Below are positions 39,843-41,770 of a stretch of DNA of 64,000 nucleotides, one piece after another (the first letter of the stretch is position 1; every line of letters starts with the position of its first letter). This stretch comes from Caldimonas tepidiphila. GTDB taxonomy: Bacteria > Pseudomonadota > Gammaproteobacteria > Burkholderiales > Burkholderiaceae_C. The notes under the pieces were generated by a model. The model worked only from the letters and a program-made list of their open reading frames with translations. It searched no databases and had not been told where the DNA came from. The stretch covers positions 1-64,000 of the forward strand of contig NZ_QXMG01000022.1 in the NCBI RefSeq assembly GCF_003569765.1, given 5' to 3'. A program made the position numbers and the translations under genes.

Positions 39843-40058
39843 TGTTTCCGCGGATTTCCCCGCCTTCGCGTTCCCGAGTGGGGTCCCGGCATCACTTCGG
39901 GAGAACCCTGGGCGGGAATTGGAGTAGATTGGCGCCTTCGCGGGCGAAGCCGTCCCCCCACGCCCCGCTCCCCCTTGCCAGCACGCCAGACGCGCCCCCT
40001 CGTTCGGGGAGCGAGGCTGCCGCATTCCCGGGACGAAGAAAAAGATTCAGGAGCGCCC

Positions 40059-41369
40059 ATGCAAGCAGGTTCTGTCGGACACCTTCCCGCGCCGCGCCGT
40101 CCTTCCCGGCGCGAGGCCGCGGCGACGGTGCTCCGCTGCCGCGGCTTCGGCGTGGCCTTCGGCTCCCGGACGGTGTTCTCGTCGCTGGACTGCGACCTCG
40201 CCTCGGGGAGCATCACGATCCTGGGCGGCGCGTCCGGCTCCGGCAAGTCGACGCTGCTGCACACCCTGGCCGGCCACAGCCGGCTCAACGCCCGCTTCCG
40301 CTGCTGGGGCGAGGCGAGCTACCTCGGCGAGCCGCTCGGCCGCAGGCCCGATCCCTGGCTCGCACGGCTGGACGCGCGCCTGCTGCAGATGCCGGTGCTT
40401 GTCGCACTGAAGCAGGCGCTACGCGTCCGCCCTCAACGCCCGGGCCGGCCGGGCCGGGAACTCGTCGAGGCGGAACTGCGCGCCCTCGGCGCCGCGGAGC
40501 TCGAACCCTGGCTGGGCCGCCGCGGCATCGAGCTGCCGCCGAGGCTGCTGCGGGCGCTGCCGATCCTGATCAGCGTGCTGCGCGGCGCGCCGCTGCTGCT
40601 GCTGGACGAGCCGACCGCTGGCCTGTCCGGCGGCGACGCGGACTTCGTCCTCGCGCTGATCCGCGCCGCCGCGCAGCGCAGCAGCGTGCTGGCGGTGCTG
40701 GAGAACGGGCGGCATGCCGAGCGCCTCGGCACGCAGGAACTGGTGCTTGCCGGCGGCCGCATCGGCATTGGCGAGTCCTGCGGGCAAGCGCCCGGCGGAG
40801 AGACCGCGGATGACGCCGCGCCGCCCTCGCGGGCGGGCGCCTTCGCTCCCGCGAGCCCCGCGCGCTGCGCCGCTGCGCCCGCGCCCGGCCGACTCGCCTG
40901 GCTGCTGTCCGGGCGGCTGGCCGGCACGGCGCTGGCGAGCACCGATCCGCAGATCGACACCGCGCTCGCCGCGCTCGCGCGCGCCGGCGTGAACCGCCTC
41001 GTCACGCTCTGCGAGAAGGACATCCCGCTGCGGGTGCTCGCGCGGCACGGGCTGGCGAACCTGCACCTGGCGGTGCGCGAGGGCGAGGCGCCGAGCACCG
41101 CGCAGATGCGGATGCTGCTGATCCGCATGCAGGCCCTGCTGGACCAGGGCGAGGTGCTCGCGGTGCATTGCGGCGACGGCGCGGATCGCACCGGGACGGT
41201 GCTGGCCGCTTGGCTGATGCACTCGGAGCGCATTCCGGCCGAGGCCGCGCTGGCACGCCTGCGCGGCGCCGATCCCGGCTTCGCGGGCAAGGCCGTGCAG
41301 GAGCGCTTCCTGTCCGCCTTCGGGGCCGCGTTGCCGCAGGACCGAGAAGGAAGAGGAGGATCGCGATGA
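40059..41369 (+). CDS. ABC-type ATPase fused to dual-specificity phosphatase domain
   Basis: A 436-residue fusion. Residues 22-240 form an ABC-type ATPase: Walker A GASGSGKST (57-65), possible Q-loop glutamine 110, Walker B LLLLDEPTAG (179-188). The expected LSGGQ signature before Walker B is missing (LPPRLLRALPI instead) and the H-loop histidine appears replaced by Glu in VLENG (215), so it is atypical. Residues 240-278 are a linker. Residues 279-425 form a protein tyrosine/dual-specificity phosphatase with CX5R loop HCGDGADRTGT (C371, R377); the usual Asp of the general-acid loop appears as Glu in VREGEAPS. No membrane helices. ATG 40059 follows CAGGAG. Overlaps the next gene by ATGA. Function unknown; perhaps signalling. 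Confidence 0.8.
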   Translation: MQAGSVGHLPAPRRPSRREAAATVLRCRGFGVAFGSRTVFSSLDCDLASGSITILGGASGSGKSTLLHTLAGHSRLNARFRCWGEASYLGEPLGRRPDPWLARLDARLLQMPVLVALKQALRVRPQRPGRPGRELVEAELRALGAAELEPWLGRRGIELPPRLLRALPILISVLRGAPLLLLDEPTAGLSGGDADFVLALIRAAAQRSSVLAVLENGRHAERLGTQELVLAGGRIGIGESCGQAPGGETADDAAPPSRAGAFAPASPARCAAAPAPGRLAWLLSGRLAGTALASTDPQIDTALAALARAGVNRLVTLCEKDIPLRVLARHGLANLHLAVREGEAPSTAQMRMLLIRMQALLDQGEVLAVHCGDGADRTGTVLAAWLMHSERIPAEAALARLRGADPGFAGKAVQERFLSAFGAALPQDREGRGGSR

Positions 41370-41770
41370 ATCTGAGCGACGCGCTGCGCGACTCTGCCGG
41401 GGGCATCCCCGAGTGCCTGGCCGCTGCCTGCATCGACGTCGCCGCCGGCGTGCTGACGGCGATCGAGACGCTGGAGTCGCATCCGCGGCCGGTGATCGAG
41501 CTGCTCGGCCCGGCCACCGCCGAGCTGTTCAACGGGCCGAACGTCACGGCGATCGAGGCGCTGTTCCGCCGCGCTCGCGGCGACGCCTCGGGCGGCCGGC
41601 GCCACTTCCAGGAAATCATCCTGCACAGCGAGCGCCTGATGCACCTGCTGCTGCGCAGCCGCGCTCACCCGGAATATGTGCTGGCCTTCGTCTGCCGCCG
41701 CTCCGCCAACCTCGACCTGGCGCTGACCCGGGCGAGGCGCGCGCTGCCGGCGATCGAAGCCTCGCTCTGA
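41366..41770 (+). CDS. Small protein, possible roadblock/LC7-like domain
   Basis: A 134-residue cytoplasmic protein that starts inside the stop codon of the ABC-phosphatase gene with AGAGGAGG in front. The pattern (helix, AACIDVAAGVLTAIETL strand-like stretch, long helix, EIILHSERLMHLLLR, EYVLAFVCRRSANLDLALT) looks like a roadblock/MglB-type fold that regulates nucleotide-binding partners. This is a fold guess by eye. It is probably the dedicated partner of the upstream ATPase-phosphatase. Confidence 0.75.
   Translation: MNLSDALRDSAGGIPECLAAACIDVAAGVLTAIETLESHPRPVIELLGPATAELFNGPNVTAIEALFRRARGDASGGRRHFQEIILHSERLMHLLLRSRAHPEYVLAFVCRRSANLDLALTRARRALPAIEASL

Follow-up and report, generated by a model that had tools for sequence, protein, structure and literature searches.

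A putative signaling module of an ABC ATPase-phosphatase fusion and a predicted roadblock-type protein, with a diverged copy in Caldimonas tepidiphila

The pairing of an ABC ATPase fused to a dual-specificity phosphatase (DSP) with a small protein of predicted roadblock fold is a real and widespread module, one copy of which lies in the window, i.e., the 64,000-nucleotide stretch of Caldimonas tepidiphila DNA analyzed here. Our reading, to which we give a probability of about one half, is that the family forms a soluble signaling module combining a non-transport ABC ATPase-DSP phosphatase with a roadblock regulator, and that the window copy is a diverged paralog with weakened catalysis. The features of the window copy, followed by what they were identified from, are:

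40049..40053, + strand: AGGAG, likely ribosome-binding site of P0001, 5 nt before the ATG (sequence)
40059..41369, + strand: P0001, ABC ATPase-DSP phosphatase fusion, 436 aa (ORF, Pfam, model)
40131..40769, + strand: ABC ATPase domain, residues 25-237, approximately 23-238 in the model (Pfam, sequence and structure matches, model)
40227..40250, + strand: Walker A, residues 57-64, with K63 and S64 (K and S in 74 of 74 aligned rows)
40593..40610, + strand: Walker B, residues 179-184, with D183 and E184 (D and E in 74 of 74 rows)
40701..40703, + strand: Glu215 in place of the H-loop His, which is present in 72 of 74 rows (alignment)
40779..40886, + strand: linker of low confidence, residues 241-276 (model, alignment)
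40890..41333, + strand: DSP-type phosphatase domain, residues 278-425, approximately 279-424 in the model (Pfam, sequence matches, model)
41079..41081, + strand: Glu341 in place of the general-acid Asp, which is present in 73 of 73 relatives (alignment)
41166..41192, + strand: phosphate loop HCGDGADRT, residues 370-378, with C371 and R377 (alignment)
41354..41359, + strand: AGGAGG, likely ribosome-binding site of P0002, 6 nt before the ATG (sequence)
41366..41770, + strand: P0002, 134 aa, predicted roadblock/LC7 (MglB-like) fold (ORF, model)

Both genes were reproduced from the sequence with the coordinates, frames and ATGA overlap that an earlier interpretation of the DNA (the sequence-only reading) had assigned to them. 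They encode proteins of approximately 46 kDa (P0001) and 14 kDa (P0002), and their G+C content by codon position (0.79/0.58/0.90 in P0001 and 0.73/0.51/0.92 in P0002) displays a coding periodicity like that of the two neighboring genes for which it was computed, while a stop-free outcome for the 436 codons of P0001 arose in 0.36% of 5000 base shuffles. The claimed fusion was recovered by Pfam, which finds an ABC domain (ABC_tran, 29.7 bits, cut-off 25) and a phosphatase domain (DSP-PTPase models Tc-R-P, 61.2 bits, and PTP-SAK, 53.7 bits, cut-off 27). A model of P0001 based on an alignment of 74 rows (the window copy and 73 relatives) had a mean pLDDT of 84.3 and a pTM of 0.59, and the 50 PDB structure matches listed for it are ABC proteins, including PstB, MlaF and FtsE, while the phosphatase part matches by sequence protein tyrosine phosphatases such as SsoPTP and human DUSP23. 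At the end of the linker, an F..P...F...G tail is nearly invariant in the relatives and gapped in the window copy.

An MglB/roadblock-like fold had also been suggested for the small protein, and the structure prediction supports it. The P0002 model (83-row alignment, P0002 and 82 relatives) reached a mean pLDDT of 91.9, and its secondary structure runs helix-strand-strand-helix-helix-strand-strand-strand-helix. Foldseek comparison with the PDB gave 94 matches at E up to 0.001, and the 50 listed are roadblock, MglB, MglC, MP1/p14 or Ragulator/LAMTOR entries, where we take the MP1/p14 entries and two titled only "human heteropentameric" or "heteroheptameric complex" (five to six of the 50) to be roadblock proteins; Thermus MglB matched the model with a TM of ~0.7. 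P0002 had no significant match in Pfam, Robl_LC7 (PF03259) included, and the relatives tested likewise did not match Robl_LC7; a profile-profile comparison of the P0002 family with the Robl_LC7 proteins of the same loci gave a probability of 56%, and a PDB profile search with P0002 gave nothing below E 0.2. Armadillo-repeat matches in the PDB were rejected, as their weak scores were summed over repeats and no single stretch passed. On the strength of its model, P0002 is predicted to have a roadblock/MglB-type fold.

Relatives of P0002 were matched in 193 stretches of the species-genome collection, and the best 80 of these 193 matches were kept, giving 78 loci that consequently lean towards close relatives. 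Judged by title, these loci derive mostly from beta- and gammaproteobacteria, with a few from alphaproteobacteria, Myxococcales or related MAGs. A fusion lies within 300 bp of the P0002 relative in 68 of the 78 loci from the best 80 matches, and 65 of the 68 fusions are full-length in one ordinary frame, that of L045 being spread over two overlapping ORFs and those of L112 and L114 being longer proteins with two ABC domains. The fusion is thus recurrent and not confined to the window genome, and the conserved synteny of both genes agrees with the system that the sequence-only reading had proposed. With respect to the roadblock gene, the fusion is located upstream in 55 loci, downstream in 12 and between two roadblock genes in one (L063), and in L110 ABC and DSP are encoded by separate genes flanking the roadblock gene. 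Since both gene orders and this split form occur, it appears to be the partnership that is kept, rather than a fixed order.

Besides L110, the ten other loci comprise four with a partial fusion at a contig end (L047, L071, L095, and L118), three in which the small gene lies at most 150 bp from a contig end with no fusion within 300 bp (L078, L091, and L100), L109 with the fusion 3.7 kb away, and L115, where the P0002 relative has no fusion. Relatives of P0002 without a fusion were also found as a lone copy in L037, in Ruegeria stretches and in all four stretches read from family f57, one of which (L132) carries two P0002 copies with neither a GTPase nor a canonical roadblock gene recognized nearby. 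In a set of short loci, which have flanks of only ~1.5 kb and overlap the other sets, the fusion was present in 25 of 29 (absent from L159, L160, L162, and L163). Among 60 genomes related to that of the window, itself included, five have the P0002 protein and the same five match both halves of the fusion, G026 carrying, besides the pair, an additional small gene that stands by itself. A phylum survey for the fusion matched at least 11 of 398 genomes (both halves in four, the ABC part alone in seven), a lower bound because the G212 fusion (L130, E 3e-60) is absent from its table. For G449 (L129), the P0002 match could not be assigned to a particular gene, and neighboring ORFs were called by a simple script, so that some starts or strands are wrong.

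Some individual loci deserve mention. Two Myxococcales MAGs encode fusions of ~1200 aa with two ABC domains before the phosphatase (L112:6328-9906 and L114:6259-9906), and in L112 a gene for a PAS-histidine kinase lies beside the fusion. A stand-alone pair in Comamonas (L133:6239-13665) is located between a gene for a DegP-like protease and a two-component system with a GAF-GGDEF gene, all on one strand. The lone P0002 copy of G026 (L037:9330-10303) directly follows an FHA-domain ORF, and the surrounding ORFs look prophage-like by eye.

Alignment of the fusions separated traits of the family from losses in the window copy. K63 and S64 of Walker A, D183 and E184 of Walker B, and C371 and R377 of the phosphatase loop are unchanged in all 74 aligned fusions, in line with the Walker motifs and CX5R loop described earlier for the window copy, whose HCX5R loop also has H370. 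The missing LSGGQ, noted earlier as well, is a family trait: neither glycine stands at the signature position in any of the 74 rows, and LSGG strings occur in three rows, all away from that place. An LSGGD at residues 189-193 was rejected as the signature, since it sits after Walker B, at the D-loop; no ordinary signature was thus found elsewhere. In contrast, the losses of the H-loop His and the general-acid Asp (Glu215 and Glu341), which the sequence-only reading had likewise seen, are not family traits, and neither is the loss of the Q-loop Gln, where the window copy has Leu104 and 72 of 73 relatives have Gln. The one other row with Leu at 104, L069, has Asp at 215, and the three losses are combined only in the window copy. 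Four further residues occur in the window copy only: Gly410 (Gln in 73 relatives), Asp376 (Gly in 73), Asp373 (Ala in 70, Gly in three) and Ala58 (Pro in 73), placing two extra Asp within its phosphate loop. Leu104, Gly410, Asp373 and Asp376 are additional to what had been noticed before.

Because of these acidic residues in the phosphate loop and the lack of the acid Asp, the H-loop His and the Q-loop Gln, catalysis by the window copy is probably much reduced or absent, while ATP or partner binding may remain. A different explanation for the same changes would be that the window copy is a redundant paralog decaying towards a pseudogene. Seven of the 20 motif positions checked are changed in it, compared to two in the next worst row, and its end branch of 2.05 is the longest of the 74 fusions (median 0.24). 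Moreover, among nine genus genomes a fusion match at E 1e-20 was found only in the window genome (G000) and G001, leaving seven of the nine without one, and none of the genus genomes provided a homolog close enough for dN/dS analysis of the window copy. On the other hand, neither frame is interrupted, both show coding periodicity and are preceded by Shine-Dalgarno sites, and Walker A and B, C371 and R377 are intact. Both partners have also changed together, P0001 departing at 21 of 71 columns conserved at ≥90% (other rows at most 10) and P0002 at 18 of 61 conserved columns (other rows at most nine). Decay is in our view rather unlikely, and we favor a diverged paralog of weakened catalysis. 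The window fusion falls in a clade of 47 rows with support 100/100, although its position inside the clade and, for so long a branch, the placement itself are unsure, and the other members of this clade have no GTPase within 7 kb, except for the second copy of the window genome. A long branch (1.68) was also observed for the Vandammella/Lampropedia fusions and one MAG (L082, L083, L086, L087, and L090), in which Arg165, located after the signature position and conserved elsewhere, is lost.

In 25 of the 78 loci the same strand encodes, within 7 kb, a Ras-like (MglA-type) GTPase, a Robl_LC7 protein and a protein of ~216 aa (c216), usually in the order c216, GTPase, fusion, P0002 and Robl_LC7. 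A simple pattern showed that T/A-PGQ replaces the Asp-containing G3 motif of the GTPase in 23 of 26 cluster members. The second copy of the pair in the window genome (contig C10, L031) lies within such a GTPase operon and is unchanged at 20 of 20 checked motif positions, and contig C44 of the same genome carries two GTPase genes, c216-like ORFs and a ferredoxin-globin gene, while the window pair itself has no GTPase gene adjacent. The sequence-only reading had neither the second copy nor the link to a GTPase operon because both are outside the window. For c216, profiles gave no match to response regulators and a comparison with the 267-284 aa proteins of L110 and Ruegeria gave nothing; one member had a weak match to Trans_reg_C (E 0.08).

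The fetched stretch contains a globin-domain protein in 23 of the 78 loci, with a ferredoxin domain in 22 of these 23, and such globin/ferredoxin neighbors suggest an oxygen or redox input to these systems. The globin proteins near roadblock loci (for example L185:5696-6856) combine a truncated-globin domain with a conserved Cys-rich tail; most also have a 2Fe-2S ferredoxin domain, and some have FAD/NAD reductase domains. In the more distant family f57, GTPase and roadblock proteins were found beside the P0002 relatives in three of four stretches (L127, L128, and L131, not L132), and L128 has a protoglobin and an ODP-type protein in place of the ferredoxin-globin type. Other surroundings were observed on the Ruegeria plasmids L038-L040, where P0002 relatives occur with dynamin-like, Ser/Thr kinase, FHA and PP2C genes, and in L110, where dynamin-like proteins, the separate ABC and DSP genes and a ferredoxin-globin protein are found.

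This context raises the question whether the roadblock protein acts mainly on the GTPase, as a GAP-like or MglC-like regulator in cis or in trans, with the fusion as a separate effector of the same pathway. In the phylum sample of 398 genomes, the window's included, P0002 occurs in 35 and the GTPase in 57, the latter including every one of the 35; 27 of the 35 belong to family f57, and the GTPase is also present in the other eight of eight. Besides this co-occurrence and the GTPase, Robl_LC7 and c216 genes near the pair in the 25 loci, the P0002 relatives without a fusion (L115, L037, Ruegeria and f57) and the GTPase genes on two other contigs of the window genome would fit such a role. In Snodgrassella, moreover, a Group 3 system is reported to include orphan mglB genes far from mglA, and one of these orphans affects host colonization (PMC11112851). 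However, in the window's own family (299 genomes) P0002 is present in 23 genomes, the GTPase in 38 and both in 14, and the remaining nine of 23 P0002-positive genomes gave no match to the GTPase profile even at E 1e-3 with every first-look candidate scored, in a scan that had no positive control of its own; the same profile matched the 38 of 299 family genomes in a separate scan. These nine genomes indicate that the roadblock protein can persist without that GTPase, and the association is strong, not obligate. The p values computed for it (Fisher 1e-8, hypergeometric 2e-35) ignore phylogeny. Since the GTPase is not obligate and the fusion stands beside P0002 in nearly all informative loci among the 78, we take the fusion to be the more direct partner and the GTPase to be an alternative or additional one, and regard a role mainly on the GTPase as unlikely. 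Divergence of the roadblock protein was correlated with that of the DSP domain (partial r 0.60) more than with that of the ABC domain (0.13) across 63 loci, with phylogeny and saturation uncontrolled; the window copy was left out, as were L063, L065 and L107 because they have two copies each. This is a hint, from sequence divergence, that the roadblock protein may touch the phosphatase side of the fusion.

In the soluble signaling module that we prefer, binding of a roadblock dimer together with ATP binding or hydrolysis in the ABC domain would set the activity of the phosphatase, presumably towards a phosphoprotein, by analogy with MglB acting on the switch NTPase MglA. In many species the module forms part of an operon with an MglA-type GTPase and has globin or redox proteins close by, and elsewhere the pair stands alone. 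The window copy would be a stand-alone paralog that, if working, most likely acts by binding, as a decoy for or modulator of the genome's other copy, whose motifs are intact and which lies on a different contig. ATP gating of the phosphatase had already been proposed for the window copy. As the signature loss is family-wide and the His and Asp losses are specific to this copy, such gating fits the family better than the window copy for which it was put forward, and regulation by the roadblock protein, part of the same proposal, stays conditional. More tentatively, the family may represent a class of nucleotide-gated phosphatase switches, in which a roadblock protein controls a signature-less ABC ATPase that no longer serves transport and whose fused phosphatase provides the output, i.e., an ATP-using counterpart of MglA/MglB cued in part by globin/ferredoxin redox sensors, with one copy in the window lineage turned into a pseudoenzyme pair.

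Two further roles find little room. That P0001 is an ABC transporter ATPase whose phosphatase tail is regulatory and whose permease is encoded far away would agree with its closest folds, ABC nucleotide-binding domains such as PstB and MlaF, but is very improbable and disfavored, since the LSGGQ glycines are missing throughout the family and no ABC permease was found among the operon proteins scanned with Pfam or, as the sequence-only reading had argued when calling transport unlikely, among the six window neighbors scanned. The FAD-oxidase-like ORF near 43.5-44.9 kb and the small CBS-like ORF near 37.1 kb lay outside the latter scan, and just downstream of the pair are genes for a BrkB-type and a DUF2069 membrane protein. 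A conflict or defense element, which the Pfam name Tc-R-P (polymorphic toxin system) and the matches of the dynamin-like neighbors in L110 to the PADLOC models LeoA and LeoBC (up to 41.6 bits) could suggest, is hardly credible, as the PADLOC matches of two tested fusions are ATPase matches of at most 38.6 bits with none for P0002, P0002 relatives are absent from the phage collection and none was confirmed in one viral-contig scan, and the contexts read are mostly chromosomal signaling operons; the PADLOC, phage and viral-contig searches thus lend a defense or toxin role of P0001 or P0002 no support.

Roadblock proteins are thought to regulate NTPases, and in the portions of the literature used here the bacterial ones with a known NTPase partner are paired with Ras-like GTPases. 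If our reading is right, a roadblock partner for an ABC ATPase-phosphatase would extend this rule to a further class of NTPases, a non-transport role would be suggested for proteins that would be annotated automatically as transporter ATPases, and bacterial dual-specificity phosphatases would be linked to MglA-type signaling and possibly to oxygen sensing.

In the titles and abstract openings of open-access PMC papers, a search to which subscription journals and supplements did not belong, no description of the ABC-DSP fusion or its roadblock pair was found, and the combination is apparently new, with domains that are all known and a link to a type of signaling system already described. MlaFB likewise consists of an ABC ATPase with a small single-domain partner, MlaB, which regulates it, and MlaF ranks among the closest structural matches to the ABC domain. 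However, MlaB has a STAS fold, unlike P0002, and MlaF works with a permease and carries a normal signature. The two-domain globin-roadblock protein HGbRL of Methylacidiphilum joins a globin with a roadblock domain, a coupling also suggested by the globin genes close to our operons, but as far as the sections consulted describe it is without an ABC ATPase or phosphatase domain (PMC4476040). The conservons of Actinobacteria, with the roadblock protein CvnB and the GTPase CvnD, are likewise signaling operons of several genes with a roadblock protein and a small GTPase at their core, whereas in the sections consulted their four proteins include a histidine kinase-like protein and no ABC-phosphatase (PMC4316618). 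Closest in make-up are the Group 3 MglA systems of beta- and gammaproteobacteria, which as described there comprise an unknown protein, an MglA homolog and one or two MglB homologs (Wuichet and Sogaard-Andersen, 2014; PMC4316618), and are matched by the operon of c216, GTPase and Robl_LC7 protein in the 25 of 78 loci and L031. The same sections mention no ABC-DSP protein (PMC4316618), and the window pair is without an adjacent GTPase. For the unknown protein, receiver-like and winged-helix regions are reported there; the profile comparisons of c216 did not recover them, apart from the weak Trans_reg_C match of one member. P0002 itself resembles the roadblock proteins MglB, MglC and Ragulator in predicted fold, and differs from them in that the relatives tested escape the Pfam Robl_LC7 model and are paired with an ABC-phosphatase fusion.
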